A stretch of DNA of 64,000 bases, taken from positions 116,588 through 180,587 of the forward strand of contig JAHDRA010000012.1 in assembly GCA_018433525.1 (NCBI GenBank), written 5' to 3'. This DNA is from Paludibacteraceae bacterium (lineage in GTDB: Bacteria; Bacteroidota; Bacteroidia; Bacteroidales; Paludibacteraceae). Under the pieces are notes generated by a model. The model did not search any database. It worked only from the letters and a program-made list of their open reading frames with translations, and had not been told where the DNA came from. The translations under genes were made by a program, and so were the position numbers. Within the stretch, counting starts at the first letter, position 1, and each line of letters begins with the position of its first letter. Below, one piece after another: positions 4,654 through 30,108 of the stretch.

Positions 4654-4697
4654 TTAAGGAGCTTTTTATTATGACCATACTAAATAAAAATACAAAT

Positions 4698-6236
4698 ATG
4701 AAAAATAAAATATTTATTACAGCAATTTCGCTGTGTGGATTCTTTTTGACAAGTTGTGAAGACTTCCTTACGGACAAGCCTGAGTCAGTACTTACACAGG
4801 TTGATTTCTATACAACCCCTATACGAATCAATCAGGGAGTAATCGGCTGCTATGCTGGCCTCGCAAATATACAGAAAGATGAATGGATGTATACCGAACT
4901 CAGGAGCGACAATTCATGTCAAAGTGAAACAGGCTCGAGTGCAACAATCAGAATTGATCAAACCGATATAGCTTCTTTTAGGCTTTCTCCAAGTTTACCT
5001 GCTTTGCGCGATTACTGGTATAAAATTTTCCAGAATATTTCCAATATTAACGCAGTGCTACCTTCTGTAAGAGACAATAGTTATGTTGCAAATGAATCAC
5101 TCAGAGCACAATATGAAGGTGAACTTTTGTTTTTGAGAGCTTATCATTATTACACGCTGGTCAATTTGTTTGGCGATATGTTTAAAATAACCAAAGTTAT
5201 CGGGCCAAATGAAGCAAAAAAAATTCCTCGTTCGCCGGTTTCTGAAATCTATAATGAAATAATTATTCCCGATTTGAAAAAGGCAGTTGAAGAATTACCT
5301 TCCACCTACTCAGCAACAGACTTGGGAAGAGCCACCAAGTGGGCAGCCAAAGGAATGTTGGCCAAGGCTTACATGATGTTGGGCGGAAAGGATAATTTAT
5401 CATTGGCTAAAAAAGAATTGGAAGACATTCTAACACTATCGCCACATGGTTTGTTAACTGGTACAGGTGCTTATGCAAATATTTTCAGTATTAGCAACGA
5501 AATGAACAAGGAAATAATTTTTGCCGTACGATACAAAGGCGGTAGTTCCGGCATTGGTTCACCATTCTGGGGCACTTTTGCACCTTTGGGTTCTGCAAAC
5601 TTATTCTTAAAAATCGGAACACCGCTTGGTTATAATAATCCCACTTATGAGTTGATGAACTTGTTCAATGCAAATCCAAATGATACTCGTAAGGATGCTT
5701 GTTTCAAAGTATGGAATAAATCGTCAACTGTTTCAGTGCCTTATATTTCCAAATATATGGATGCATCTATGACCCAACCGCTTCAAAGTGAAAATGACTG
5801 GATTATTTTACGTTTTGCCGACATAAAATTGCTTTATGCCGAAATTTTGGCTCAGGACGGGAATTTTGCAAATGCGCACAATCCGCTTAATGATGTCAGA
5901 GCAAGAGCCGGACTAGATGGAATTGGTCCTTTTGGTTCAAAAGAAGAAGCTTTAGATGCTGTATATGCCGAAAGACGCTTGGAGCTTGCATTTGAGAATC
6001 AGCGCTGGTTTGATTTGCTTCGCATGGCTAAATCGTATGACAATCCGGACAAACCGATGGAGATTTTAAGGAGACATACCTTTGAAACAGATTGGGCAGT
6101 GCTTTATTCAAAATACAATCCCATGCAACCGCCTGAAGAAAGATTTTATATCAAGGAAAGGTTGTTGCTCCCGATTCCACAAGCTGAAATCGACACCAAT
6201 AATGAAATGGTAATTCCTCAAAATCCAACCTATTAA
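4698..6236 (+). CDS. SusD/RagB-family surface glycan-binding lipoprotein
   Basis: This cell-surface lipoprotein forms the lid of the SusC channel and binds the incoming glycan. I start it at 4698 (MKNKIFITAISLC) rather than at the ATG at 4671, because 4698 gives a clean lipoprotein signal with the lipobox LTSC and a following EDFL, the usual SusD start. Family features are the TPR-like helices (FLRAYHYYTLVNLFGDM, LGRATKWAAKGMLAKAYMML), the RFADIKLLYAEILA helix and the C-terminal ERRLELAFENQRWFDLLR motif. Length, about 512 residues, is normal. The gene follows susC by 44 bases, so the two are cotranscribed. Confidence 0.94.
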   Translation: MKNKIFITAISLCGFFLTSCEDFLTDKPESVLTQVDFYTTPIRINQGVIGCYAGLANIQKDEWMYTELRSDNSCQSETGSSATIRIDQTDIASFRLSPSLPALRDYWYKIFQNISNINAVLPSVRDNSYVANESLRAQYEGELLFLRAYHYYTLVNLFGDMFKITKVIGPNEAKKIPRSPVSEIYNEIIIPDLKKAVEELPSTYSATDLGRATKWAAKGMLAKAYMMLGGKDNLSLAKKELEDILTLSPHGLLTGTGAYANIFSISNEMNKEIIFAVRYKGGSSGIGSPFWGTFAPLGSANLFLKIGTPLGYNNPTYELMNLFNANPNDTRKDACFKVWNKSSTVSVPYISKYMDASMTQPLQSENDWIILRFADIKLLYAEILAQDGNFANAHNPLNDVRARAGLDGIGPFGSKEEALDAVYAERRLELAFENQRWFDLLRMAKSYDNPDKPMEILRRHTFETDWAVLYSKYNPMQPPEERFYIKERLLLPIPQAEIDTNNEMVIPQNPTY

Positions 6237-6889: not shown

Positions 6890-9277
6890 ATGAAAAAAAC
6901 ATTCGGCATTTTATTATTCATGTTTCTCCCATTTTCGGTGATATTGGGAACAAGTTATAAAGTAATGAACTTGGATCAATTTAATGAAAAATCCAAATTG
7001 CTACTACCCGGCGACAGCATCATTTTGAGCAATGGAGTTTGGAAAGATGCTCAATTGGTATTCAAGGGAAATGGGGAGAAAAACAAATACATTTATCTTC
7101 TGGCTGAAAATTCGGGGAAAGTCAGTTTGGAAGGAGAATCGTGCTTGAGAATGTCGGGAAACTGGTTGTATGTTTCCGGTCTTGTATTTCGAAATGGACA
7201 CACTCCAAGAAAGACGGTAATTGAGTTTAGAACTGGCTCCAAAGAATATGCCTTTAATTCAGTTTTAGCCGAATGTGTCGTTGACCAATTCAACCAAAAA
7301 GTGAAAGATTCAACCGACCATTGGATTGCCCTTTATGGACAAAAAAACACGATAAGAAATTGTTATTTTGCCGGCAAAACAAATCTGGGAACCACTTTAA
7401 TCGTTTGTCCCGATGACGAAAACTCCATCAACAATCAACATTTGATTTATAGAAATTACTTCGGTTTTCGACCTCGTCTCGGTTCCAATGGTGGAGAAAC
7501 CATTCGTATTGGTACCAGTGAAGTTTGCACCAACAGTTCAGAGACAATAGTAAAAGGGAATTATTTTGAACATTGCAGTGGAGAAACGGAAATTATATCC
7601 AACAAATCTACAGATAATTCATTCCTTAATAATACTTTTTACGAATGCGAAGGTAGTTTAGTGCTTCGTCACGGAAACAATGCTACAGTAGCAGGTAATT
7701 GGTTTATTGGTAATGGTAAAGCTTTTACCGGAGGAATAAGGGTTATCAATGAAGGACATAAAATTTTCAATAATTATTTTTATCGTTTGGCTGGAGATGA
7801 TTTCCGTTCGAGTTTGGCTATTATGAATGGCATTCCTAATTCACCAGCCAATGGTTATGCTCCTGTAAAAAATGTAATAGTTGCCAATAATACGTATTAT
7901 GATTGTACATCTCCTTGGTCATTTGGAGTAGGATTTGGATTTCGAAACCGCATTGCAAAACCTGAAAATACCTTGTTATTGAATAATTTGGTTTATTGCC
8001 CAAATACCGATGAACTGATTAAATATTACGACCAGATGGACGGTATCATGTTGGACAACAATATTTTGGTGAATAGCAAGGGGAACCTGGAAATGAAAGG
8101 AACGGTAAAAGGTGAAATTTTTCAATCAAAAATGAACGATTTAGAGATTGTATATACCAATACAACAGCTAAAAGACTTGCTTTTATTAAAGAAGACATT
8201 TTGGGACAAGTTAGAACAACTCCTGTTATCGGCGCTTTTCAGAACAATATCGTAAATCCGACTATAGCAATGGCAACAAAACATAATTGTGGTCCTGAAT
8301 GGTATAGAAATAAGATAACCGAAACTACAAAAACAGAAAAACGTTTTGGGAAAGCCACAGTTGTAGAAGCAGGACTTGATTTACTTTCCAAAGCTGTAAA
8401 AAATGCCGGCGATAACGATACCTTGTTACTGATGCCAGGAGAACATGTAGTTACAAAAAAAATGGCTATTAACCAAAATTTGGTTATTCGCTCAGCTGAC
8501 AATAAGGTAAAACCAATCATAATTATGAAAGCCGACAAGGAAAATGCTTACATGTTCGAAATCTCAAATAATGTAAAGCTACAACTTGAAGGTGTGAAGA
8601 TTGATGGTAACAGTGAATCGAATTTCCCAACCAAATACGCCTTTATTTCTTCTCGTGAAGGTGCTGCGCATTTTTCTTTAATAGTGAATCAATGCGAAAT
8701 TTCTGGTTTTAACGTAAAAACTGGTAGCATTTATCGCGCTTACAAAGGTTCATATGCTGACTCAATAGTGGTAACCAATACAGTGATGAAAGACTGTTTT
8801 CGTGGTTTTAGTCTGAGCGAAGAAAAAGATGATAAAGGGACATACAATGCAGAAATAGTAAAATTTGAAAATTCGGTTTTCGACAATTTTACCCAACACG
8901 CTTTGGACTATTACAGGGGAGGGAATGACGAATCTACTTTGGGAGGTTTTCTTTTTGTAAATCATTGTGTTTTTAACAATATCGGCCAAGACGAAAAACA
9001 GTCCATGCTAAAGCTAAACGGTATTGTGAATGTTTCCATTGCCAATTCTATTTTTTCCAACTCAATGGCAAAGACAAGTGTCAAACTTTCAGGTAATAAA
9101 AACATAATTCAGAACTGCTGTTTTTATAATTGTCCGGCACCAAAAGTAGAAAACGGAGCTGTCTCACAAAATCTTTATTTCGACAATCCCCGATTTGAGA
9201 AAAAAAGTTTTCTCCTTTCAAAGAAATCTCCTTTAATAGGGAAAGCTACTGACGGAGGAAATATTGGTTTGAGATAA
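6890..9277 (+). CDS. PL6-family two-domain alginate lyase (periplasmic)
   Basis: This is a 795-residue lyase that cleaves alginate by beta-elimination. A signal peptide (about 1-20) leads into a right-handed parallel beta-helix of family PL6 (about 22-450). The catalytic pair is visible: Lys239 in IISNKS and Arg260 in VLRHGN. They are 21 residues apart, the spacing of Lys220/Arg241 in the Glaciecola enzyme AlyGC. Acidic residues in GETIRIG and GETEI fit the Ca2+ site. A second beta-helix domain fills about 470-795 (GLDLLSKAVKNAGDNDTLLLMPGEH onwards), also as in AlyGC. There is no T9SS sorting domain and no lipobox, so a periplasmic site is likely. It is cotranscribed with SusCD. Confidence 0.88.
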   Translation: MKKTFGILLFMFLPFSVILGTSYKVMNLDQFNEKSKLLLPGDSIILSNGVWKDAQLVFKGNGEKNKYIYLLAENSGKVSLEGESCLRMSGNWLYVSGLVFRNGHTPRKTVIEFRTGSKEYAFNSVLAECVVDQFNQKVKDSTDHWIALYGQKNTIRNCYFAGKTNLGTTLIVCPDDENSINNQHLIYRNYFGFRPRLGSNGGETIRIGTSEVCTNSSETIVKGNYFEHCSGETEIISNKSTDNSFLNNTFYECEGSLVLRHGNNATVAGNWFIGNGKAFTGGIRVINEGHKIFNNYFYRLAGDDFRSSLAIMNGIPNSPANGYAPVKNVIVANNTYYDCTSPWSFGVGFGFRNRIAKPENTLLLNNLVYCPNTDELIKYYDQMDGIMLDNNILVNSKGNLEMKGTVKGEIFQSKMNDLEIVYTNTTAKRLAFIKEDILGQVRTTPVIGAFQNNIVNPTIAMATKHNCGPEWYRNKITETTKTEKRFGKATVVEAGLDLLSKAVKNAGDNDTLLLMPGEHVVTKKMAINQNLVIRSADNKVKPIIIMKADKENAYMFEISNNVKLQLEGVKIDGNSESNFPTKYAFISSREGAAHFSLIVNQCEISGFNVKTGSIYRAYKGSYADSIVVTNTVMKDCFRGFSLSEEKDDKGTYNAEIVKFENSVFDNFTQHALDYYRGGNDESTLGGFLFVNHCVFNNIGQDEKQSMLKLNGIVNVSIANSIFSNSMAKTSVKLSGNKNIIQNCCFYNCPAPKVENGAVSQNLYFDNPRFEKKSFLLSKKSPLIGKATDGGNIGLR

Positions 9278-15072: not shown

Positions 15073-15104
15073 GCAATTAAATGCGATTCAAATACTATTT
15101 AAAA

Positions 15105-16010
15105 ATGAAAAAAATTCTTCTATCCGCTTTATTATTATCCACGTTTGTCATTGGAATTTTAGCACAAGAAAATTCTAATGAATCAGTCAAAAAAGTTCAG
15201 TTTCCGGAAAATTATCAATCGAAATTGGATGTAGTTTATACCCGTGTAAACGGTTGGGACGGTCGTATGGACATTTATTTCAATCCGGCAAGCGAACAGC
15301 CCACACCTGCGGTTATTCATATTCACGGCGGTGGTTGGAATCACGGAACAAAGGAAAGTCAGACCGGTTTCGGTTCATGGTTCAAAGCCGGATTTGCCGT
15401 TATCAATGTTGAATATCGGCTGGTTCAGGTTGCTCCGGCTCCTGCTGCAATCGAAGATGTGCGTTGTGCGCTGACTTATGTGAAAACACATGCCAAAGAA
15501 TTGAATATCAATCCTGATAAAATTGTAATTGACGGAAATTCTGCTGGAGCTCATTTGGCACTTATGGCCGGTTTACTGGAAAACGATCGCAGATTCGATA
15601 CCCATTGTCCCAGTAATATCGACATGAGGGTGGCTGCCATCATTAGCAATTATGCTCCAACTGATTTTTCGGGCAACAATATTGATGCAAAAAAATGGAA
15701 ATCACTGGCAAATTGGTTGGGAGATAAAGTAGATGACAAATCTTTTCGCGAAGCAGTTTCTCCTTTGAGTTACGTTAAAAAAACAAGTCCTCCCGTTTTC
15801 ATTGTTCATGGCAATGCCGACCCAATCATTCCTTATCAGCAATCGGTTGCTTTGCATGAGAAACTTGACCAATCGGGTGTTTACAATGTATTTATTACCG
15901 TCGATGGTGGCGGACATGGTGGCTTTGACAAGGATAAGAAAGCTGAAATCAGCCTTGCGTTGAAGGAATTTCTTTCAAAAACCATTTTTTCTGAAATAAA
16001 TGAAAAATAA
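15105..16010 (+). CDS. Secreted alpha/beta-hydrolase esterase
   Basis: I start this esterase at 15105 (MKKILLSALLLSTF), where a good signal peptide begins, rather than at the ATG at 15081. The fold is the BD-FAE / carbohydrate-esterase type. An oxyanion-hole motif HIHGGGWNHG is followed by the nucleophile elbow GNSAGAH (Ser146), the acid Asp239 in GNADPIIP, and His271 in GGGHGGFD. All three catalytic residues are present. It probably removes O-acyl groups, perhaps acetyl groups from alginate (inference). The esterase domain encoded at 21342 is a close relative sharing the HGGGWNHG and GGGHGGF motifs. It lies 32 bases after the heparinase-like gene and closes the first operon block. Confidence 0.85.
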   Translation: MKKILLSALLLSTFVIGILAQENSNESVKKVQFPENYQSKLDVVYTRVNGWDGRMDIYFNPASEQPTPAVIHIHGGGWNHGTKESQTGFGSWFKAGFAVINVEYRLVQVAPAPAAIEDVRCALTYVKTHAKELNINPDKIVIDGNSAGAHLALMAGLLENDRRFDTHCPSNIDMRVAAIISNYAPTDFSGNNIDAKKWKSLANWLGDKVDDKSFREAVSPLSYVKKTSPPVFIVHGNADPIIPYQQSVALHEKLDQSGVYNVFITVDGGGHGGFDKDKKAEISLALKEFLSKTIFSEINEK

Positions 16011-16074: not shown

Positions 16075-16130
16075 TTTGTATTTGAAACAAAAACGCATTA
16101 TTTTTGGTCGACCAATAATTGGTTGACCAA
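16075..16130 (+). promoter_or_regulatory. Promoter with tandem GntR operators for the second block
   Basis: TTTG (16075-16078), a 20-base spacer, and TATTTTTG (16099-16106) form a Bacteroidetes promoter. Operators TTGGTCGACCAA (16104-16115) and TTGGTTGACCAA (16119-16130) overlap and follow the -7 box, with the same 15-base phasing and sequence as upstream of susC. A TTG codon at 16119 could open the reading frame, but it lies in the operator. The ATG at 16146 is the sensible start. Confidence 0.78.
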
Positions 16131-16145
16131 TTGAAAGGGATTAAA

Positions 16146-19145
16146 ATGGATATTCACACCCAACTAAATTCCCAAACAAATGAATGTTCTAACAAAAAAA
16201 GAATTAAAACAGTAATCGGATTTATTATTCTGATGAATTTCATGCTATTCCTAAGCAAACCGCTAAGTGCTCAAATTGTGCTGAATACTTCTTTTGAAAA
16301 TTCCGAAAATTTTATTTTAGGGAATGTCAATAATCAAAATAATTGGAAAGTAACCTCAGGGATGGGTGCAATCACCAATGATGTGAATTATGTAAAAACA
16401 GGTGTGCAAGCATTGCACCTTTACTCTGCCGGCACTACGCTTCAAACGGATTTTATTCCTTATACTTCGACTGCTACAGGATTAAGTGGGGATGTTTATA
16501 TTGATTTCTGGATAAATATTAAATCACTACCTACTGCCAATTTTAGCATTACAGGGTACGATTTGGGCACATACACCAGTCGCAATTTTATGTTGGAATT
16601 TCTTCCGTCGGGGAAAATAAAATTGTACGACGGTAGTTCTGGCTGGTCGACACAGCCACTTTATGCTACCAATACATGGAAAAGAATTTCGATAAAAATC
16701 GACAATACAGGCACCAAATGTCAATATGCCATTGATGGAGTTGTTCAGAATAAACTGTTTGCATTCAGAGAAATAAAGGGAGACGCTACCTCGTTTGATT
16801 TCCATTCCATTCGATTCTCAATGAATGCAGGGACGGCTGATATTGCTGTGGAAGATATATATATTGGCACAACACCGATAGCGGATGTAACTTTTCAGAG
16901 CTCTTCAACCGATAGAACCATCAGCATTACTCAACCCTCATATGGAACGATTTCGCTAATGCCTTCAAAATCGGTTTATCAATTAAACGAGCAGGTTACA
17001 GCTTCCATATCGATCCCTGAACACTATCTTTTCACAGGTTGGACGGGAGATTTAAGCGGTGCGAATAATCCGATTTCTTTTATAGTCGATAAAAATTATT
17101 CCATTGGCGCAACAGTAATTATTGATCCGTCCAATCCACCTGCTCAATATCCTGTCAATATTACGCAACCAACTGGGGCAACGATAGTATTATCACCTCA
17201 ACAATCGAATTATTATGAAGGAACTAGTGTCAAAGCAACGATAACTTTGCAATCAGGATATCAATTCAACGGATGGACGGGAGATTTAAGCGATACAACC
17301 AATCCCATTACTTTTGTTGTATCAGGACCAATAAACATTGGTGCATTAGTTTCAGAAATTCAAGTTTCTTCCATAACACGCACAGTATCTACCGTTGCAC
17401 AATTCAAAGATGCATTAGCTAATATGAATCCTGGTGATACTATTTTGGTGTTGGATGGAACTTATAATCTCGGTGGCATTAAAATAACACGTGGAGGCTC
17501 AGCTTTAAAACCAATTTTAATAAAATCGAAAAATCTTTTCGGAGCAAAAATTACTGGTGCTTCTTATTTCAATCCACAGGGACAAAGCTATGTAACTTAC
17601 GAGGGTTTTAAATTTGAACTCAGTCCAGTAAGCACTATTTTCAAAATGGAAGGTTGCAGTTATGTGCGTATTACTAGAAACTGGTTTACCATGAATTCTG
17701 ATGCTACAAAAAACTCGAAATGGATAACAATAGGCGAAATATGGGAGAATGAAATTTGCAGAAGCCATCACAACAGAATTGATCATAATCTTTTTGAAGG
17801 CAAACATGATATAGGAGCGTTACTTGTCATTGATGGTAGTCATGGAACAGTTCCTGCTATTTCACAACACGACAAGATTGATCATAATATTTTTAGAGAT
17901 AATACGCCTCGCGTGGATAATGAAAAAGAAACAATCCGTATCGGTGTAAGCGATTTGAGCAACCTCAATGCTTATACGGTAGTGGAATATAATTTATTTG
18001 AAAATTGCGATGGAGATCCTGAAATTATTTCGATAAAAAGCAATTGTGATACCATTCGGCACAATACTTTTCGACGTTGCCTTGGGACCATTTGTTTACG
18101 TCAAGGCCGAGGTAGTGTAGTGGAGGGTAATTTCATGTTTGGAGAAAATAAAACCGCACTTTTCAATGGAGGAATTATTGGATGTGGTGGTGTAAGGATG
18201 TATGGATTAAACCACAAAATCTTCAACAATTATTTTGAAGAACTTACTGGTGACAAATGGGATGCAGCCTTAACAATTACTAATGGAGATGTAACCAATT
18301 CATCTACCAGTCTGTCCAGTCATTTTTTACCTGAAAATATTATCATTACCAACAATACATTAATCAACAATGTATCGAATATAGAAATTGGTTTCGATAA
18401 CAACGGTTCTTATAGAAAACCTCCTATAAACTGTATGATTGCCAACAATATTATTACGGCCATAGCCAATCCATTGGTAAAATATTATAGTTCAGCTTCA
18501 CTGGCAGGCGTATCTTTTGTAAACAACATTTTGTATCCGACTGAAACTGCTACCATTGGCTTAACAAGTTACAACGATACACAAGTAAAAAATATTGATC
18601 CACAAATGATTGTTACTGATTGTAGAGCTTTCGATCAGGATTGTGAAAATAAATTACCTTTCTCGCTTTATAAATTGACTGTTTCTAGTCCTGCTGTAAA
18701 TGCTTCTACTGCTTATGATTTTGTTACGACTGATTTTGAAGGACAACCGGCAATTGGAATAAGAGACATTGGAGCAGACGAATACAATATTGCTTTCCCG
18801 GTCGTTAACGGTCCAATGGATGAAACAAGTGCAGGACCAGAAGCACCTGAAAATTATACCTATGAGCTAAATGAAATTGTAGGATGGAAAAACATTGTAA
18901 ATAATGAAATTTCTGTAATGCCAAATCCTTTCAATGGTACTACACAATTGACAATTCACAATACCAAAGCCGGGAAAATAAGTGTAAATCTATACAATAC
19001 TCTGGGTGAACAAATTCAACAAAATGAAATAGAAGCAAACGAAGGAATGGTGCAAATGAAAATTTCAACAAAACAAAAAGGTTTGCTGTTTTGCCTTATC
19101 CAGTTACCGAATAAAACATTTAGTCTAAAATTTATTTCTAAATAA
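16146..19145 (+). CDS. Modular PL6 alginate lyase with binding domain, two B-repeats and T9SS signal
   Basis: This secreted lyase has about 999 residues. After an atypically long N-terminal signal region (hydrophobic part VIGFIILMNFMLFLS, ending SAQ) comes a LamG/jelly-roll module (about 45-245). Two tandem InlB-type bacterial repeats follow (about 250-320 and 325-405, each with the FxGWTGDLS motif). The PL6 beta-helix (about 415-880) has the catalytic pair Lys631 (ISIKSN) and Arg652 (CLRQGR), again 21 residues apart, with Ca2+-site acids in ETIRIG and DGDPEI. A T9SS type A sorting domain ends the protein (about 915-999, MPNPFNGTTQL...). It should act at the cell surface on polymeric alginate. 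It is the first gene of the second, operator-controlled block. Confidence 0.87.
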   Translation: MDIHTQLNSQTNECSNKKRIKTVIGFIILMNFMLFLSKPLSAQIVLNTSFENSENFILGNVNNQNNWKVTSGMGAITNDVNYVKTGVQALHLYSAGTTLQTDFIPYTSTATGLSGDVYIDFWINIKSLPTANFSITGYDLGTYTSRNFMLEFLPSGKIKLYDGSSGWSTQPLYATNTWKRISIKIDNTGTKCQYAIDGVVQNKLFAFREIKGDATSFDFHSIRFSMNAGTADIAVEDIYIGTTPIADVTFQSSSTDRTISITQPSYGTISLMPSKSVYQLNEQVTASISIPEHYLFTGWTGDLSGANNPISFIVDKNYSIGATVIIDPSNPPAQYPVNITQPTGATIVLSPQQSNYYEGTSVKATITLQSGYQFNGWTGDLSDTTNPITFVVSGPINIGALVSEIQVSSITRTVSTVAQFKDALANMNPGDTILVLDGTYNLGGIKITRGGSALKPILIKSKNLFGAKITGASYFNPQGQSYVTYEGFKFELSPVSTIFKMEGCSYVRITRNWFTMNSDATKNSKWITIGEIWENEICRSHHNRIDHNLFEGKHDIGALLVIDGSHGTVPAISQHDKIDHNIFRDNTPRVDNEKETIRIGVSDLSNLNAYTVVEYNLFENCDGDPEIISIKSNCDTIRHNTFRRCLGTICLRQGRGSVVEGNFMFGENKTALFNGGIIGCGGVRMYGLNHKIFNNYFEELTGDKWDAALTITNGDVTNSSTSLSSHFLPENIIITNNTLINNVSNIEIGFDNNGSYRKPPINCMIANNIITAIANPLVKYYSSASLAGVSFVNNILYPTETATIGLTSYNDTQVKNIDPQMIVTDCRAFDQDCENKLPFSLYKLTVSSPAVNASTAYDFVTTDFEGQPAIGIRDIGADEYNIAFPVVNGPMDETSAGPEAPENYTYELNEIVGWKNIVNNEISVMPNPFNGTTQLTIHNTKAGKISVNLYNTLGEQIQQNEIEANEGMVQMKISTKQKGLLFCLIQLPNKTFSLKFISK

Positions 19146-19185: not shown

Positions 19186-21276
19186 ATGAAAAAAATTACA
19201 TTACTTATCACAATGATTGCCTTGACATTTATGGCAAATGGAACCGTTTATCTAGATGAAACATTTAACTATCCAGAGGGTAGTAAACTAAAAGATAATT
19301 CAGGTTGGACAACGTATGGAACAATTGGTGGTTGGCCAGACGATTTTGTTATTGGAAGCTCTACTTTAACTTACTCTAATTCAGGTGGCAGCTATATTCT
19401 ATCTGGTCAGGGGAAAGCTATGGTATGTAATTATTTGGCAAATTATTCTCCCAATTCCACTAATTATTGCGTTTATAGAAATTTTAATTCATCAGCGTTA
19501 ACTACTGGAACTGTTTATGCTGCTTTTTTGTACACTCCTAATTCAGTTTCTCAATCACAAAGTCAATCCCCTATTATTAGTTTAAGTACTCCAAGCTCAA
19601 ATACTGGTGTTCAAGTTTGGGTAGGGAAAGGAGCAGTTAATACTTCATATTTTCGATTTGGTACAACAAGAGGAAGTACAAGTAGTGGAGACATCAAATG
19701 GTCTACTACAGAATATTCTGATGTAAGCGCCACCTATTTTATTGTTCTTAAATATGATTTAGACAATAAAGTATCGTATATTTATATCAATCCTACCATT
19801 GGGTCTGCATCAGAACCAATTGCTGATGCAAGTGACGCAATTTCCACAAGCAGTACAAAAACCTCATTACAGACATTGCAATTTAAAGTACAAGGTGCAA
19901 GTAAGGAAATATACAAATTAGGTAATGTTAGAATTTGTTCAACTTGGTCAGAAGCAGTAGCAGCGCAATCAACAGCCAACCCACTTCCTGCCCCATCGGT
20001 TGGTACTCCTTCCGATGCCACAGCTAATGGGTTTACGGCTAATTGGTCGCCGGTTGAAAACGCAATAGGATATGATGTAAAAGTTTATTTGGGGCCTAAT
20101 TTAATTAGCACCATTATTGTTAGCGGGCAGTCTACTTCAAGTGTTGAGATAACGGGCTTAATGTCAGGAATGACTTACACTTATCAAGTTGTTGCCAAAG
20201 GAGACGGTGTAGCTTATAGCGATTCTGATCCTTCAGCTTCTTCTTCTGAAATTACAACCCTCGATCCTTATGCCACCGATGCTATTCATACCGATTTCGA
20301 TGATGGCACATGGGGAGAAATTGCAAGTAGTACCCCGTCTTCAGGTTCTTATCCAACCTATTCGGTAAATGGATTTAATCTAACGGCTGCTACCTTGTGT
20401 GTAGGTTCAATGAGAGGAATCAAAGGAGAATCGCATGTCAATAGGATCGCAATCGATAAATTGGCTAATGGTGGGAATGTAGCTCTTCCAACGGTCAATG
20501 CTTTCAAACAAATTGAAATTCACGCTACGGCTGGTACTGCAGGAAACGGCTTCCAGTTAAAAGAATTCAATCCAAGTACCAATTCGTGGTCGGCTATTGG
20601 TTCTCCTTACGTTTATGATGCCAATTCGAAAGCTGCAGGCACCGATTCCATTTATATTATTTCTTTGGAAAAAACTTCACCGACTAAACTCAGAATTGAA
20701 AATCCCACCAATGGAGTGATTTATATTTGGCAAATTATTACTCGCAATACCAATCCCGTTTTGTTGGCTAAACCGGTTGTTTTGGATGCATCCAATGTTA
20801 CCTCGTCAGGAGCTACAGCTAATTGGACTCCGGTAGAAAATGCAACAGGCTATAAAATTTATGTTTATCAAGGATCAACGTTAATTGAAGGAGCGCCATT
20901 CAGTGTTAGTGGGCAAACCATTAACAGTTTTGATATAACCAATTTGTCTGCATCCACAGCATATTCTTACAAGGTTCAAGCCATCGGGGATGGGGATATA
21001 AATTATTCTGATTCATTCCTTTCTTCTGCTATTGAATTTACAACGTTGATTACTGGAATGGATAATTTAAAAAATAATCCGAATATCACTGTAGTAAATA
21101 AAAAAATTGTTTGTCCCGAAACGGGCGATATACGTATTTTCAATATGCAGGGAGGCTTGATAGAATCGGTAAGAAATGTCAAAACTGTTCAGACTGACCT
21201 GCCTTCAGGAATTTATATTGTTAAATTCAACAATCAAAATGGTGAAACCAAATTCCAAAAAATCGCTATTCAATAA
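19186..21276 (+). CDS. T9SS-secreted multidomain binding protein with two FN3 domains
   Basis: This 696-residue protein has no recognisable catalytic domain. Its order is: signal peptide (about 1-20); LamG-like jelly roll (about 21-262, VYLDETFNYPEGSKL to KLGNVRICSTW); fibronectin type III (about 265-360, TANGFTANWSPVENAIGYDVKV); a roughly 155-residue module (about 366-521, FDDGTWGEIASSTPSSGSYP onwards); a second FN3 (about 525-620, ANWTPVENATGYKIYV); and a T9SS type A sorting domain (about 625-696). The 366-521 module recurs in the next protein. The domain mix suggests a surface carbohydrate-binding protein that may replace SusE/F-like proteins, but this is inferred only from layout and position. 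Confidence 0.75.
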   Translation: MKKITLLITMIALTFMANGTVYLDETFNYPEGSKLKDNSGWTTYGTIGGWPDDFVIGSSTLTYSNSGGSYILSGQGKAMVCNYLANYSPNSTNYCVYRNFNSSALTTGTVYAAFLYTPNSVSQSQSQSPIISLSTPSSNTGVQVWVGKGAVNTSYFRFGTTRGSTSSGDIKWSTTEYSDVSATYFIVLKYDLDNKVSYIYINPTIGSASEPIADASDAISTSSTKTSLQTLQFKVQGASKEIYKLGNVRICSTWSEAVAAQSTANPLPAPSVGTPSDATANGFTANWSPVENAIGYDVKVYLGPNLISTIIVSGQSTSSVEITGLMSGMTYTYQVVAKGDGVAYSDSDPSASSSEITTLDPYATDAIHTDFDDGTWGEIASSTPSSGSYPTYSVNGFNLTAATLCVGSMRGIKGESHVNRIAIDKLANGGNVALPTVNAFKQIEIHATAGTAGNGFQLKEFNPSTNSWSAIGSPYVYDANSKAAGTDSIYIISLEKTSPTKLRIENPTNGVIYIWQIITRNTNPVLLAKPVVLDASNVTSSGATANWTPVENATGYKIYVYQGSTLIEGAPFSVSGQTINSFDITNLSASTAYSYKVQAIGDGDINYSDSFLSSAIEFTTLITGMDNLKNNPNITVVNKKIVCPETGDIRIFNMQGGLIESVRNVKTVQTDLPSGIYIVKFNNQNGETKFQKIAIQ

Positions 21277-21341
21277 CTTATTAACCAAGCAATCATGTCT
21301 GCATGAAAAAATGCAGATATGAAACTTGGAACATAAAGCTT

Positions 21342-23693
21342 ATGAAAAAAACGGTCAGTGTATTTCTCTTTATTCTATTTGGTGTTTTCATATTGAATGC
21401 CACAGAATATCAATTTCAGGAAGGATTTTCTCTATCCACACCTTCAGGTTGGATTCGGCAGTGTAATTCTACCAGTTCGCTTAATCATACCGGATTAACT
21501 TTTTCCGGTATGTATGCAGCCAAGTTTGATACTACAGGCTCGGGAAGATACAATAAAAATCTGATTAGTCCTGAAGTTTCGGGTGCTGATACGCTTTCAT
21601 TTTATGTTTCGAAGAATGCAAATGCTACTTATATGACTTTGTACGTAGGAAAAGTAATAGGTAATGACACCACTATTCTTCAGACCTATGATTCTTTCAC
21701 TTTTCCAAATAAATCGGCTACACCCGGTTTTTCAAAAATAACTTTACCAATCAATGATGCCGGAACATTTAAGATTATATTTTATGCTACCGCTTCTACA
21801 GATCCAAATTATGTAAATGCCGGCTGGTTTGTGGTCGACGACATTGAACTTACGAAATATACCGGTGAAGTAATTCCTCCAGTTGATCCGACTGTGGATA
21901 AAATTCTGACCGAATTTGGAGATGGAACTTGGGGCATTGTTACAACAACTCCGTACACTTCAGGGAGTTATCCAAGTTCGACCATAAAAGGCTTTAATTT
22001 GGTGAAAGCATACCTGTATACTGGTTCGGTAACTTGCGCTACGGGAGACAAACATGTGAATCGTATTTTGCTGGATAAAAGTTCACAAGGTGCAGCCGTT
22101 GAATTTCCTACCTTAAACACAGTCGGAGAATTGGAAATTCATGCGGCCACTGGAACAGATGCCATGAGTTTTCGACTGGAGGAACAAGTGAATAGTCAAT
22201 GGCAAGTAATAGGTATTTACACTACGCGTAAATCGCCTGACAGCATTTATGTCATTCCGCTTTTGAGAAACAGTGCTACCAAACTGAGAATAGCTAATAA
22301 TACAGGTAGCGGATTGTATATTTATAAAATTATATCCCGAACTTATCAGGAAGCTACAGAATTGACCTTACGCAGTTCTTCTCCTGTCGAAGGTGAAGTA
22401 GTTTATTCCAATCTGAAGAAGAATATAATTCTGACTTTCAATAAAAATGTACATATTGGTATGGGAACTATTCTATTAAATGGCGTTTCAATTCCTTTGG
22501 AATATTGCCAAATCGTTGACAACGTAGTTACCATTCCTGTCACATTTACTACCACACCTGGAGTTAATAAAGATTATACGTTGATTATATCGACGGGTTT
22601 ATTTGTTGAAGTGGGAAATGCTGCAAATCAATCGAAAACTATTACAATACATTTTCAAACTTTGAAATCAGTGGCTTATCCTTCCAACTATAATGGATTG
22701 ACCGATGTTGTTTATAAAAACGTAAACAGCGAAAATACCCGTATGGATATCTATTATCCGTTAAATCCTCAAGCACCCGTTCCGGTTGTAATAAATATGC
22801 ATGGAGGCGGATGGAATCACGGGTACAAAGAAGATCAGGGAGGTTTTAATCTCTATTTCAATAGGAGTTACGCAGTAGCCAATGTAGAGTATCGAATGAC
22901 GGGCGAAGCAACTGCACCTGCGGCAGTGGAAGATGTTCGCGGAGCGATGATGTATTTATTGAATCATGCAAAGGAATTGAATATCGACCCAATGAAAATT
23001 ATATTTCAGGGTGGTTCCGCCGGCGGTCATTTAGCCTTGATAAGCGGTTACCTTGAAAACAATCCGTTATACGATAACGATTGTGTGCTTCATGGAGGAA
23101 ATTATAAAATAATGGCTGTAATCGATAAATATGGACCCGCCGATTTGAATAATTTCATGTTTTATACTTCGTTGGTCAATTGGTTAGGCCCGCATTCCAC
23201 GGATCAAAATTTTATCAATTCCATTTCGCCGATTAATTATGTGAATGCAAACACACCGCCGACTTACATTATTCACGGTGATGCCGATCCTACGGTTCCT
23301 TACAGTCAGTCGGTTACATTGCATAACGCTTTGGATGCAGCGGGAGTAAAGAATCAGTTTACAACAGTTCCGGGTGGAGGCCATGGAGGTTTTCCGGATG
23401 CTTACCATACTCAAATGGAAAATGAGATTAAGGCATTTCTAACTGAAGTTGAAAATAATCAAACAAATGGAGTGAAAAATATTGACGGAAACAAAAATAC
23501 TGTTTTTTCTATTTCAGGCAGAAATTTATCTATTCTTATTGAAGCAAAAACATTGACAAATGTGTACGATTTTATGGGGAAAAATATCATAAAAACGGAA
23601 GATAAAAATATAACATTGCATAGCCAAGGCATTTATTTGTTAACAGTTGAAAATAAAAACGAAAAATTTGTTTCTAAAATAATAGTTAAATGA
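21342..23693 (+). CDS. T9SS-secreted esterase fused to binding modules
   Basis: I start at 21342 (MKKTVSVFLFILFG), which gives a proper signal peptide. The modules are: a choice-of-anchor-like beta-sandwich (about 20-175); the same roughly 150-residue module found in the preceding protein (about 186-335, FGDGTWGIVTTTPYTSGSYP onwards); an SbsA-type Ig-like domain (about 340-445, SSSPVEGEVVYSN...ILTFNKNV); an alpha/beta-hydrolase esterase (about 445-710); and a T9SS sorting domain (about 715-784). Catalytic motifs are MHGGGWNHG, Ser559 in GGSAGGH, the Asp of GDADPTVP and His681 in GGGHGGFP. It is a surface-targeted relative of the esterase encoded at 15105. Its stop overlaps the next start (ATGA), showing translational coupling to the PL38-like gene. 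Confidence 0.82.
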   Translation: MKKTVSVFLFILFGVFILNATEYQFQEGFSLSTPSGWIRQCNSTSSLNHTGLTFSGMYAAKFDTTGSGRYNKNLISPEVSGADTLSFYVSKNANATYMTLYVGKVIGNDTTILQTYDSFTFPNKSATPGFSKITLPINDAGTFKIIFYATASTDPNYVNAGWFVVDDIELTKYTGEVIPPVDPTVDKILTEFGDGTWGIVTTTPYTSGSYPSSTIKGFNLVKAYLYTGSVTCATGDKHVNRILLDKSSQGAAVEFPTLNTVGELEIHAATGTDAMSFRLEEQVNSQWQVIGIYTTRKSPDSIYVIPLLRNSATKLRIANNTGSGLYIYKIISRTYQEATELTLRSSSPVEGEVVYSNLKKNIILTFNKNVHIGMGTILLNGVSIPLEYCQIVDNVVTIPVTFTTTPGVNKDYTLIISTGLFVEVGNAANQSKTITIHFQTLKSVAYPSNYNGLTDVVYKNVNSENTRMDIYYPLNPQAPVPVVINMHGGGWNHGYKEDQGGFNLYFNRSYAVANVEYRMTGEATAPAAVEDVRGAMMYLLNHAKELNIDPMKIIFQGGSAGGHLALISGYLENNPLYDNDCVLHGGNYKIMAVIDKYGPADLNNFMFYTSLVNWLGPHSTDQNFINSISPINYVNANTPPTYIIHGDADPTVPYSQSVTLHNALDAAGVKNQFTTVPGGGHGGFPDAYHTQMENEIKAFLTEVENNQTNGVKNIDGNKNTVFSISGRNLSILIEAKTLTNVYDFMGKNIIKTEDKNITLHSQGIYLLTVENKNEKFVSKIIVK

Positions 23694-24868
23694 AAAAGTT
23701 ATTTCCTTGTTTGATAGGATTGCTGATTTTGCTTTCAGTATTGAATTTACAGGCTCAGCCAAGAATATGGAATTTGAATCAGATAGACCATGCAAAAAAC
23801 TCTAACTCTGAAGTAGTGAAAGCCGTGATTCGGGAAGCCGATAAAAATTTGTCGGCAACGATTGCTACGGTGATGGATAAACCTTTGACACCGGCAAGTG
23901 GAGATAAGCATGATTATATGAGCATGGGGCGTTACTGGTGGCCTAATCCGAATACGAAAGATGGATTGCCATATATCCGAAAAGACGGTGTTTCTAATCC
24001 TGAACTCGAAAAATTTGATCGAAATCCGCTTTCCAAAATGACTCGAAGTGTCATTATCTTGTCGCTTGCCTATCATTTGACCAATAATGAGCAATATGCC
24101 CAAAAAGCAGTGGAGAATTTAAAAAAATGGTTTCTCGATAAAAAAACAAGAATGAATCCGAACATGGAATTTGGGCAAACCATTCCGGGACGCAACAATG
24201 GAAAGGGGCGCGGAGAAGGTGTCTTGGACAGTTATTCATTTGTCGAAATGCTCGATGCGGTTGAATTGCTGAAATCTTCCAAAAAGTTTCCGAAGGAAGA
24301 TCAAACAGCTTTGAAAGATTGGTTTTCGTCGTACTTGAACTGGATGTTGACTTCCGAAATCGGTCAGGAAGAATATAATGCCAAAAACAATCATGGAACT
24401 GCTTTTGACGTGCAAGTAGTGAGATATGCTTTATTTACAGAAAATAACGAAGTTGCGGACAAATTTGTAAAAACTTTTCCGGAAAGAAGGATTTTCTCCC
24501 AAATAGAGCCCAATGGTGCACAACCCTTAGAATTACAACGAACAAAAGCATTTGGTTATTCGGTATATAATCTGACCCATTTTATGGATATGGCTTTCAT
24601 AGCAAAATCCATGAATCAAGATATTTTTCATGCTATTTCTAACGATGGAAGAAGTATCACAAAGGCAATAGAATTTTTGCTCCCTTATTTAGGAAAATCT
24701 CCTACTGAATTTCCCTATCAGCAAATTGAAGAGTGGGATAAAGTTCAAATAGACTTTTGCTGGGTATTGAAAAGAGTCGATATTCCGATGGGAACAGATA
24801 ATTATAAAAATTTTTATTCTAAATATTTGCCGGATAATGGAAAAGACTTGAATTTTTTGATTTATTAA
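23690..24868 (+). CDS. Alginate_lyase-superfamily polysaccharide lyase, PL38-like
   Basis: This is a 392-residue (alpha/alpha)-toroid lyase with a signal peptide (about 1-23, ending LQAQ) and no sorting domain, so probably periplasmic. The Alginate_lyase fold is marked by HDYMSMGRYWWPNP, GRNNGKGRGEGVLDSYSF and AKNNHGTAFDVQ. Asn233-Asn234-His235 would neutralise and abstract at the uronate. Length and sequence style fit the PL38 lyases known from Bacteroides alginate and glucuronan loci better than PL5 (inference). The start codon overlaps the preceding esterase gene by 4 bases. Confidence 0.78.
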   Translation: MKKLFPCLIGLLILLSVLNLQAQPRIWNLNQIDHAKNSNSEVVKAVIREADKNLSATIATVMDKPLTPASGDKHDYMSMGRYWWPNPNTKDGLPYIRKDGVSNPELEKFDRNPLSKMTRSVIILSLAYHLTNNEQYAQKAVENLKKWFLDKKTRMNPNMEFGQTIPGRNNGKGRGEGVLDSYSFVEMLDAVELLKSSKKFPKEDQTALKDWFSSYLNWMLTSEIGQEEYNAKNNHGTAFDVQVVRYALFTENNEVADKFVKTFPERRIFSQIEPNGAQPLELQRTKAFGYSVYNLTHFMDMAFIAKSMNQDIFHAISNDGRSITKAIEFLLPYLGKSPTEFPYQQIEEWDKVQIDFCWVLKRVDIPMGTDNYKNFYSKYLPDNGKDLNFLIY

Positions 24869-26036: not shown

Positions 26037-27782
26037 ATGATTTTAACTTCATCGAACCCAAGCGGCAGACTATTTTTACTAATAACTTTCTTTATGAGTT
26101 TTACCATCGTAAATGCTCGACAAACGACGGTTACTTCAGCTTCGGAAATCAACAATGGCAGTTGGTCGGCGGGAGACACGATTGTTATGAAAAACGGCAC
26201 ATGGACCAATCAATCCATATCTTTCAGAGGTACCGGGAATGAATCGCAACCAATTGTACTGATGGCAGAAACTCCTGGTAACGTAATTTTGAATGGAACT
26301 TCAAAACTCCAATTTTCCGGTAAATACATAGTTGTCAGCGGACTTTATTTCAAAGATGGAAACTTGAGTGGTTCGGATGTTATTTCATTCAGAACCTCTT
26401 CTTCTCAACTTGCCGAAAATTGCAGACTAACGAATACAGCCATAGAAAATTATAATCCTTTAGACAGTACCGTTGACAGCAAATGGGTTTCTATTTATGG
26501 AAAAAACAATAAAGTGGATCATTGTTCATTTGTAAATAAGACCAATTCCGGAACTTTAATGGTAGTTTGGCTTACCAGTGGAATAACAGTGAATCATGAA
26601 ATTTCAGAGAATTATTTTGGGTATCGAAATGCCAATCTCGATGCGAATGGCAACGAACTGAACGGACAGGAAATCATTCGCATAGGCGATAGCTCTACCT
26701 CAATGACAATCGCCGCAGTAACAGTCAAGAATAATTTTTTTGAACATTGTAATGGCGAAATTGAAACGATTTCGAATAAATCGTGCGGAAATACGTATTA
26801 TAACAATCTTTTTTACGAATGCAAAGGTATGCTTACATTACGTCATGGGAATGGATGTACCGTGAAAGGAAATTACTTTTTTGGCAATGGAATTTCTAAT
26901 ACCGGAGGGGTAAGAATTATTGGAGAAAATCACAACGTTTATAATAATTATTTTGAAAATTTGCGTGGTACAAATTATCGGGCAGCACTTTGCATTGTTC
27001 GTGGAAAAGAAAATTCGGCACTGAACGAATATTTTCAAGTAAAAAATGCAACCGTAGTTTTCAATACTTTCGTCAACTGCTCACAGGCTTTCAGAATCAA
27101 TTACAACAGCAGCTCATCACTGACTATGCCTCCAATCGGAACGGTCATTGCCAACAACCACGTTTATAATACCTCTTCATCGTATTACAACGTAAGCATT
27201 GATTTGACAAATGCAACTGGAATGGATGTAACTTGGTCAAACAATTTGATGAATATTGGACGATACACAAATTTTACTTATGACGAAAATCAAGTAATAA
27301 CAGGTAAAGATGCAAAAATGATTCCTGTAAGTACTCCTATTCCCATGTATGAGCCATCAATAGGTTCGGAATTGGTAAATTATGTAACGGCCGATTACCC
27401 AGAAATCATCAACGATATAAGAGGCAGAGAAAGAAACAGCACCGCAAAATTGCCGGGTGCAAGCGAAATAAATGGTACAGTTTCTTCATCCATGCCAGTT
27501 AAAACTTTAGTAGGTGCTTCTTTTTATAATAACCCAAACACCGGTATAAAAAATACCAATACTTCATTCAAGCCATTTACATGGCTTATCCAACAACATC
27601 AGATAATTTTCAATAGTTTTGAGACTGGAAATCTATATTTGGTCGATATGTCGGGAAAAGTACTGTTAAATTGGTTGGTTCCACTTAACACACAACTTAT
27701 TACCAAAACCTTAGAAAAAGGGATTTACTTGATGGTGTTTAAAACTCCGAACAAACAATACACCGAAAAAATTATTTTTTGA
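26037..27782 (+). CDS. PL6-family alginate lyase with T9SS sorting domain
   Basis: This is a 581-residue lyase with a signal peptide (about 1-27, ending VNA), a single PL6 parallel beta-helix (about 30-480) and a T9SS sorting domain (about 505-581, FETGNLYLVDMSGKVLLNW). Catalytic Lys248 (ISNKSC) and Arg269 (TLRHGN) keep the 21-residue spacing of the family. EIIRIGD and GEIETI supply the Ca2+-site acids. It lacks the second beta-helix of the 795-residue PL6 and the extra modules of the 999-residue one. The three PL6 proteins thus form a graded set: periplasmic two-domain, surface modular and surface single-domain. Confidence 0.88.
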   Translation: MILTSSNPSGRLFLLITFFMSFTIVNARQTTVTSASEINNGSWSAGDTIVMKNGTWTNQSISFRGTGNESQPIVLMAETPGNVILNGTSKLQFSGKYIVVSGLYFKDGNLSGSDVISFRTSSSQLAENCRLTNTAIENYNPLDSTVDSKWVSIYGKNNKVDHCSFVNKTNSGTLMVVWLTSGITVNHEISENYFGYRNANLDANGNELNGQEIIRIGDSSTSMTIAAVTVKNNFFEHCNGEIETISNKSCGNTYYNNLFYECKGMLTLRHGNGCTVKGNYFFGNGISNTGGVRIIGENHNVYNNYFENLRGTNYRAALCIVRGKENSALNEYFQVKNATVVFNTFVNCSQAFRINYNSSSSLTMPPIGTVIANNHVYNTSSSYYNVSIDLTNATGMDVTWSNNLMNIGRYTNFTYDENQVITGKDAKMIPVSTPIPMYEPSIGSELVNYVTADYPEIINDIRGRERNSTAKLPGASEINGTVSSSMPVKTLVGASFYNNPNTGIKNTNTSFKPFTWLIQQHQIIFNSFETGNLYLVDMSGKVLLNWLVPLNTQLITKTLEKGIYLMVFKTPNKQYTEKIIF

Positions 27783-27821: not shown

Positions 27822-27874
27822 TTTGGATACTGCAATTAAAACAGTAATTTTGTCGACACTAATTGGTCGACCAA
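27822..27874 (+). promoter_or_regulatory. Promoter and GntR operator for the PL17-kdgF-transporter block
   Basis: TTTG (27822-27825), a 19-base spacer, and TAATTTTG (27845-27852) form a very good Bacteroidetes promoter. A degraded first half-operator with the GTCGAC core overlaps the -7 box (about 27849-27860), and the perfect palindrome TTGGTCGACCAA follows at 27863-27874. The ATG at 27886 lies 12 bases downstream of the operator, which is why I reject the upstream in-frame ATG at 27823. Confidence 0.75.
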
Positions 27875-27885
27875 TCTATTTCGTT

Positions 27886-30108
27886 ATGAAAAAAAACAAC
27901 AAAACAGCTAAAAAAATTTTTTCTTCATTGATATTCATTGGTCTATCTGCTTTAATATCAGCTTCGGGTCAACATCCGAATCTGCTGCTGACTAAGCAGG
28001 GAGTAAAAGAAATACAAGCATCACTGGGAAAATATGCCAACTTTGACAAGTCGGTAAACGAATTAAAAGCGATCGCCGATAAAGCATTGAATTCCGAAAT
28101 TATTGTTCCGTTGCCATTGAATGAAGGTGGTGGATATACACACGAAAAGCACAAGAATAATTACTATGAAATGAATGCAGCCGGAACGATGTACCAAATT
28201 TCGGGTAAAAGCGAATATGCTGAATTTGTTCGGAAAATGCTGATGAAATATGCAGAATTATATCCTACTTTAGGATTGCATCCATCCAAAAGATCAGAAA
28301 CACCGGGTAAAATATTCTGGCAATTGCTGAACGATTGTGTCTGGCTATTCCATACTGCTCTCGCTTACGATTGCATTTACGATTATCTAAATTCCTCTCA
28401 AAAGACAAACCTTGAAAAAAATCTCTTTCGCCCTATGGCAGAATTTATCTCGAACGGGAGTCCGGCCAACAATGAGGTTTTCAACAAAATGCACAACCAC
28501 GGCACATGGGCTACAGCTTCGGTAGGTATGATCGGATATGTTATGGGTGATAAAAATCTGGTTGAAAAAGCCCTTTATGGTTCTAACAAAGACAATAAAT
28601 CAGGATTTATACGTCAGTTGGATGTATTATTTTCGCCAGATGGCTATTATACAGAAGGACCTTATTATCAACGTTATGCTATTTGGCCATTTATGGTTTT
28701 TGCTCAAGTGATTGAAAACAATCAGCCCGAATTGAAAATTTTTAGTTATAGAGACAGTGTTTTGTTAAAAGCAACCAATACTTTGATTCAGTGTGCTTAT
28801 AATGGAAATATTTTCTATTTGAACGATGCTTTAAAAAAAAATTATAAAACACAAGAAATAGTTTACGCAGTCGATATTGCCTATAAAAATAATCCAAAAA
28901 ATACTTTTCTACTTGATATTGCACAACAGCAAAAATCATTCATCGTATCGGATGCGGGCATTGCTACAGCAAAGTCGCTGAATATTGTGAAATATGAACC
29001 TTTACAGTTTCACTCAGTTCTTTTGCGAGATGGAGCTAATGGCGATGAAGGAGCATTAGGCATTATCAGAGCAGGGAAAAAAGATAAAACACAAATGTGT
29101 CTTACCTTCAAAGCAACTTCTCATGGATTATCACATGGTCATTACGATAAACTGTCCATTTCTATGTATGATGGAGGAAATTTCGTTTTAACCGATTATG
29201 GCGCTGTCCGCTTTCTGAATATAGAACCGAAAAGCGGTGGAAATTATGCAAAAGAAAATCATTCCTGGGCTGCACAAACCATTGCCCATAATACCGTAAC
29301 AGTAGATGAAACAAGTAATTTTAATGGCAATATTAAAGTTTCCTCTCTTCATCATTCAGATATTCAATATTATGACTTTTCAAGTAATCAAATACAAATC
29401 ATTTCCGGCTGCGAAAACAATGCCTATAAAAATGTGAAAATGCAGCGAACTGTAGCTGTAATCGAGAACAAAACATTTTCGTATCCAATTGTCATAGATA
29501 TTTTTAGAATCATCTCCGACTCTACACATACACTTGATTTCCCTTTTTACTATAGAGGTCAAATGATTTCTACCAATATTCAATATCAAAAATTTACTGC
29601 TCAATTAAATCCATTGGGAACGAAAAATGGTTATCAACATCTTTGGGTTGAGGCAATCGGGAAAAACGAAAAACCGGTTACTCAGTTTACGTGGGTTGAA
29701 GGAAATAGATTTTATACGATTACGACATTAGGTAATTCAAACACAGAATATCTGATGACACGTACAGGAGCTGGTGACCCAAATTTTAATCTCAGAAATG
29801 AAACTGCATTTATGATGCGCCAACCTATGGTAAAAAAACACACATTTGTCTCAGTAGTTGAGCCACATGGGTTTTATGATGAAAACAAGGAAATTACAGA
29901 AAATTTTGAAACCTCAATAAAAAATGCTGAACTTTATGCTGATAATGACGAATATTCGGCAGTAAAAATATCAACTGTTGAAAACAATACATTTCTTCTG
30001 ATTGCGCTGAATAAAGATTTTAATAAAGACAGGGAGCATTCAATAAAAATAGATAACCAAACAGTTGAATTCAGAGGCAATTATTACTTCACAGAATTAA
30101 CAAAATAA
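27886..30108 (+). CDS. PL17-family oligo-alginate lyase
   Basis: This is a roughly 740-residue exolytic lyase that turns alginate oligomers into the unsaturated monouronate. A signal peptide (about 1-28, ending SASGQ) is followed by the (alpha/alpha) toroid (about 30-365) and the beta-sandwich domain (about 370-740). Residues match those shown to matter in the Saccharophagus enzyme Alg17C: Asn204-His205 in MHNHGTW, Tyr261 in GPYYQRYA (56 residues later, as in Alg17C His202/Tyr258), and His417 in SHGHYDK. No sorting domain is present, so periplasmic. It leads the third block, directly before kdgF, the transporter and the SDR, so monomer production and use are under one operator. Confidence 0.92.
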   Translation: MKKNNKTAKKIFSSLIFIGLSALISASGQHPNLLLTKQGVKEIQASLGKYANFDKSVNELKAIADKALNSEIIVPLPLNEGGGYTHEKHKNNYYEMNAAGTMYQISGKSEYAEFVRKMLMKYAELYPTLGLHPSKRSETPGKIFWQLLNDCVWLFHTALAYDCIYDYLNSSQKTNLEKNLFRPMAEFISNGSPANNEVFNKMHNHGTWATASVGMIGYVMGDKNLVEKALYGSNKDNKSGFIRQLDVLFSPDGYYTEGPYYQRYAIWPFMVFAQVIENNQPELKIFSYRDSVLLKATNTLIQCAYNGNIFYLNDALKKNYKTQEIVYAVDIAYKNNPKNTFLLDIAQQQKSFIVSDAGIATAKSLNIVKYEPLQFHSVLLRDGANGDEGALGIIRAGKKDKTQMCLTFKATSHGLSHGHYDKLSISMYDGGNFVLTDYGAVRFLNIEPKSGGNYAKENHSWAAQTIAHNTVTVDETSNFNGNIKVSSLHHSDIQYYDFSSNQIQIISGCENNAYKNVKMQRTVAVIENKTFSYPIVIDIFRIISDSTHTLDFPFYYRGQMISTNIQYQKFTAQLNPLGTKNGYQHLWVEAIGKNEKPVTQFTWVEGNRFYTITTLGNSNTEYLMTRTGAGDPNFNLRNETAFMMRQPMVKKHTFVSVVEPHGFYDENKEITENFETSIKNAELYADNDEYSAVKISTVENNTFLLIALNKDFNKDREHSIKIDNQTVEFRGNYYFTELTK

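Follow-up and report, generated by a model that had tools for sequence, protein, structure and literature searches.

Gene content of the locus

The window, meaning the whole stretch of 64,000 nucleotides that was analysed (Paludibacteraceae bacterium, assembly GCA_018433525.1, contig JAHDRA010000012.1), contains a locus encoding SusC/SusD, GntR, three PL6-type lyases, a PL5 lyase, a PL17-type lyase, GH88, MFS and SDR proteins (Table 1). Alginate-lyase families and SusC/SusD are found together, the gene content by which an alginate utilisation locus is recognised, and the alginate setting proposed in the initial annotation of this DNA is borne out both by these genes and by their conservation in relatives. 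The PL17-type protein scores 704 bits against the oligoalginate lyase model NF042990, below the equivalog cut-off of 1400. The second esterase (15081..16010) matches the esterase domain of host protein 2 in relatives at 47-48% and, lacking the module described below, is its natural comparison.

Table 1. Features of the window around the two module copies
Feature	Position	Strand	Domains and basis
SusC- and SusD-like pair	1414..6236	+	PF07715/PF13715 and PF07980/PF14322
PL6-type (chondroitinase B fold) lyase	6890..9277	+	PF14592, E 2e-118
HepC-like protein	12799-15072		match well below NCBIfam cut-off
Second BD-FAE esterase, without module	15081..16010	+	PF20434, E 2.5e-70
PL6-type lyase with T9SS tail	16119..19145	+	PF14592, E 9e-46; TIGR04183 over cut-off
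Host protein 1	19186..21276	+	N-terminal ~240-residue domain, FN3, module A, FN3, T9SS type A tail
Module copy A	20281..20745	+	residues 366-520 of 19186 ORF; BLASTP to copy B; AF2 jelly-roll
Host protein 2	21342..23693	+	N-terminal beta domain, module B, Ig-like-looking domain, BD-FAE esterase, T9SS-like tail
Module copy B	21897..22346	+	residues 186-335 of 21342 ORF; BLASTP to copy A; AF2 jelly-roll
PL5-type alginate lyase	23690..24868	+	PF05426, E 8e-88
PL6-type lyase with T9SS tail	26037..27782	+	PF14592, E 2e-92; TIGR04183 over cut-off
PL17-type oligoalginate lyase (Alginate_lyase + Hepar_II_III_C)	27823..30108	+	PF07940 and PF05426

The protein at 10586-11689, kept in relative loci at 55-59%, has a weak match to PF14099 (Polysacc_lyase; E 1.8e-4, below cut-off) and is possibly a further lyase. 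Two tracts of the locus are identical or nearly identical to the sister genome G831: an exact run of 1356 bases (17567-18922), and a stretch of about 1 kb (~19750-20750) covering FN3 and module A, in which dS = 0 over 260 codons. The remainder of the locus, unlike these tracts, is ~86% identical to G831. Such tracts reflect either recent recombination or strain mixing in the assembly.

Two adjacent host proteins and their shared module

Host protein 1 has PF00041 (FN3) matches in two stretches, one on each side of module copy A, in agreement with the initial annotation, which placed this copy between FN3 domains. No catalytic domain is recognised in it, and no Pfam model covers its N-terminal domain of ~240 residues. 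The first ~260 residues are related, in relatives, to the protein at 24901-25938 (27-30%), a T9SS protein of 345 aa in which Pfam finds only a weak tail; together they represent a further domain of this locus that has no name.

Host protein 2, for which 21342 is a plausible alternative to the first in-frame ATG of its ORF at 21303, carries an esterase domain (PF20434, BD-FAE, E 1.2e-61) with the nucleophile motif GGSAGG, the nearest solved esterases being 6tkx, 6nkf and 6xyc. Copy B had been placed next to this esterase, and it does lie in the same protein, but it is not directly adjacent, because an Ig-like-looking domain of ~100 residues separates them. Both host proteins had been called T9SS proteins: host protein 1 passes the TIGR04183 cut-off of 23 (28.1 bits), whereas host protein 2 falls under it (18.9 bits).

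The existence of a module of ~150 residues common to these two adjacent proteins stands: the BLASTP alignment of copies A and B spans 154 positions, of which 43% are identical and 59% positive (120 bits, E = 4e-40), whereas the top score of copy A shuffled 1000 times is 22.7 bits; by this comparison the repeat is genuine and well outside what chance would give. The motifs DGTWG, SGSYP, GFNL, HVNRI, DK, EIHA, DSIY and TKLRI are present as originally quoted. Among the residues conserved in the module are W12, Y25, H53, N55, R56, K61, H82, K129 and R131, numbered along module copy B. The genome contains exactly these two copies, each with a net charge of ~0, so that the module is not net basic. 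Codon comparison with the sister genome (dN 0.065, dS 0.62) indicates that copy B is under purifying selection.

Sequence-family searches

The module had been described as belonging to no named domain, and this description holds for Pfam, NCBIfam and PDB sequences. In the two host proteins Pfam recognises FN3, a T9SS tail and the BD-FAE esterase domain but has no match over the module, so that the Pfam part of the HMM search proposed in the initial annotation returned no model for it; the MAM, reelin and cleaved adhesin models likewise have no match there. Single copies give only chance-level matches over the module in NCBIfam and PDB-sequence searches, and 31 members of the module family compared with Pfam at E <= 1 match no CBM family model and no family above chance. 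Four profiles of the module family compared with PDB sequences at E <= 10 recover no solved structure, neither 8x8h nor 8wc1 (the nearest structures by fold, see below) among them.

A sequence bridge to 8x8h and 8wc1 through pectate lyases of the same genome and of relatives was also sought and was rejected, since it yielded only a marginal match (E ~0.003-0.006) between the module and residues 371-527 of the genome's own PL1 protein (locus L102); a query made from this region with a short N-terminal stretch of the same protein joined in front had no PDB match.

Predicted fold

Structure prediction, also proposed in the initial annotation, gives a beta-jelly-roll for both copies, with 8x8h and 8wc1 as the nearest solved structures. 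The AlphaFold2 model of copy B, made with 31 relatives, is a confident all-beta jelly-roll (pLDDT 94.3, pTM 0.89), and that of copy A, made with FN3-type relatives, is a beta-jelly-roll with pLDDT 85.8. Copy B matches 8x8h best (Z 15.4, rmsd 2.5, 135 aligned) and 8wc1 next (Z 14.3), with 135-139 residues aligned, so that the fold is shared over the whole modelled domain; then follow reelin repeat 8 (Z 12.9), meprin MAM (12.0) and gingipain K1 (11.2), and CBM4, CBM6, CBM36, CBM22 and CBM35 score Z ~10-11. CBM96 is absent among the copy B fold matches listed, an absence that says little. Copy A also matches 8x8h and 8wc1 best (Z 13.6 and 13.2), with reelin at 12.7. In these models the CBM match therefore leads reelin by a clear margin for copy B and ties with it for copy A. 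Since 8x8h and 8wc1 rank first for both copies, the module is predicted to belong to the CBM/MAM/reelin class of jelly-rolls, the CBM being nearest. This jelly-roll is common to CBMs and to the reelin, MAM and gingipain adhesin domains, and therefore the fold alone proves no sugar binding.

Distribution, architecture and wider superfamily

Among bacterial and archaeal species contigs the module is found at 14 loci, all titled as Bacteroidales, Bacteroidetes or Paludibacter MAGs. Matches are present in 13 of 150 genomes of the family and 10 of 393 genomes of the order; the class sample adds to the genome itself one distant copy and no close one, the phylum sample has a match in the genome itself only, and the module was not found in plasmid records. 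In the samples searched, the close module family is confined to Bacteroidales.

Comparative genomics indicates two types of host. In type 1 the module lies between FN3 domains of a protein that ends in a T9SS tail and has no recognised enzyme; in type 2 one or more N-domains are followed by the module, an Ig-like domain and the esterase. In the tree the FN3-type modules form one clade (support 96/98), and both types are present in several genomes; therefore the types parted before these species did. Module genes adjoin homologues of the PL5, PL6 or PL17-type lyases in 12 of the 16 other genomes examined, the remaining four comprising a short contig, a locus with a GH88 homologue alone, one with a SusC 62% identical to that of the window, and one with no homologue in the stretch fetched. 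Many relative loci have an extra gene directly after the module-esterase gene; the two tested (L004:7798-9387 and L005:7779-9338) encode SASA-type acetylesterases, which are absent from that place in the window.

The module evidently behaves, by the architectures compared, as a discrete domain that is present or absent in otherwise similar esterase proteins. One protein of genome G837 (L071:4185-6041) has the same layout without the module (MAM-like, Ig-like, esterase), and one of the Bacteroidales genome G489 has three module copies in tandem before the Ig-like domain and esterase, although masked bases break its reading frame.

Weak but significant relatives of the module are domains of T9SS proteins with GH43, NAGPA, sulfatase, metallophosphoesterase or M6 peptidase domains, and distant copies are also present in large T9SS proteins where no enzyme domain is recognised. 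The close family and the distant set, which have no sequences in common, match each other in profile-profile comparison (E = 3e-9 over 83 columns). In G837 a 38-kb region (contig C11, 23000-61000; L067 and L068) encodes ~12 proteins with distant module copies, fused to metallophosphoesterase, GH43, NAGPA or sulfatase domains or alone with a tail; judging from its genes, it looks like a separate glycan-degradation locus in which one binding domain is used throughout.

Possible function of the module

The reading favoured here, with a probability of about 0.6, is that the module is a CBM-like accessory domain of putative binding function, which would anchor host protein 2, as an O-acetyl esterase, and host protein 1, as its non-catalytic partner, to alginate, possibly acetylated. 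A carbohydrate-binding nature had been suggested by the initial annotation, and it is supported by the predicted fold, nearest to 8x8h and 8wc1, together with the attachment of the module to carbohydrate-active enzymes in both close and distant hosts. The general features of a CBM are found in it: a discrete non-catalytic domain that accompanies carbohydrate-active enzymes, with a beta-sandwich close to a known CBM. The shared domain, its predicted fold, the locus, its conservation and the two paralogous types are observed; that the module binds a glycan, that this glycan is alginate or its acetylated form, and that the esterase acts as a deacetylase are inferred. In host protein 2 the module would hold the BD-FAE O-acetyl esterase on the polymer cut by the PL5, PL6 and PL17 lyases, and the esterase would then strip acetyl groups that block the lyases; host protein 1, with the module as its central domain, would be a protein that binds glycans and is either secreted or held at the cell surface. 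The esterases make acetylated alginate an attractive ligand: the window encodes two of the BD-FAE type, relatives have SASA, and a recent study mentions esterases as something that bacterial alginate, unlike that of seaweed, could conceivably require (PMC13377030).

Certain observations count against this reading: the reelin, MAM and gingipain adhesin domains of the same fold (Z 11-13) are not general glycan binders, for copy A they tie with the CBM match, both copies are neutral in net charge, the searches revealed no link by sequence to 8x8h or to a CBM, and distant copies are also found in metallophosphoesterase, M6 peptidase and large non-enzymatic T9SS proteins. The rival reading is a structural or protein-protein domain, similar to MAM, reelin or cleaved adhesin, that serves as a spacer or assembly part of T9SS surface proteins and has no affinity for glycans: reelin and MAM reach Z 12-13 and gingipain K1-K3 reach 11, some distant hosts have no recognised enzyme, and the module has no net positive charge. 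Such a role is rather unlikely, however, given that the nearest solved relative is a CBM, that members of the close family stay within a locus for carbohydrate degradation and are found with an esterase, and that tandem copies precede the esterase in G489.

A module that binds a glycan other than alginate, such as another uronate polymer, a glycosaminoglycan-like polymer or an acetylated bacterial exopolysaccharide, is a comparably minor possibility. The family PF14592 was originally described from chondroitinase B, a HepC-like protein and GH88 are also encoded in the locus, and the best fold relative comes from a putative pectate lyase, but in its combination of PL5, PL6 and PL17-type lyases with SusC/SusD, GntR and MFS the locus is similar to alginate loci that have been characterised (PMC11381880). 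It is highly improbable that the similarity of copies A and B stems from a recent local duplication devoid of functional meaning: the two host genes are adjacent, but the tree separates the FN3-type from the esterase-type modules, both types recur in several genomes, and identity between the types is only ~43%.

A bolder form of the favoured CBM-like reading, put forward tentatively and with the odds against it, is that the module founds a new CBM family for acetylated (bacterial) alginate, that this Bacteroidales system targets the alginate of bacterial exopolysaccharide rather than that of algae, and that the module places a deacetylase on chains that still resist the lyases. The module forms a new sequence family (in relation to Pfam, NCBIfam and PDB sequences) within a known kind of module, for which the CBM-like function is likely. 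It is a candidate sugar-binding family, with no Pfam or NCBIfam profile, that is found joined to an esterase in loci of the alginate type. Should acetylated alginate prove to be its ligand, it would offer a handle on the attack of Bacteroidota on the bacterial alginate of biofilms and sludge, and could serve as a probe for this form of alginate. The wider superfamily, with its GH43, sulfatase and phosphodiester glycosidase hosts, would then gain a first functional lead.

Comparison with known systems

The MAM, reelin repeat and gingipain cleaved adhesin domains have the same jelly-roll arrangement as the module (Z 11-13), but differ from it in scoring lower than 8x8h and 8wc1 against copy B and in having no sequence match. 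The CBM4, CBM6, CBM22, CBM35 and CBM36 jelly-rolls belong to the same beta-sandwich class at somewhat lower scores, likewise with no Pfam match. CBM96 is, like the module, a beta-sandwich tied to alginate degradation (PMC9971899); it binds through a positively charged groove (PMC9971899), whereas the module is net neutral. The CBM113/UKD domain of CelAly, which binds alginate gel and cellulose and is related to CBM96 and CBM80 (PMC13235733), is likewise an accessory domain in an enzyme from Bacteroidota. The closest counterpart of both copies by fold is the structure titled 'carbohydrate binding domain of a putative pectate lyase' (8x8h, 8wc1), by its title a domain of a polysaccharide-lyase protein, non-catalytic like the module; it is 13-15% identical to copy B and has no sequence-profile match to it. 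The locus in the window resembles the characterised alginate PUL of Bacteroides eggerthii, which comprises PL6, PL17, GntR, MFS and a CE20 (PMC11381880).
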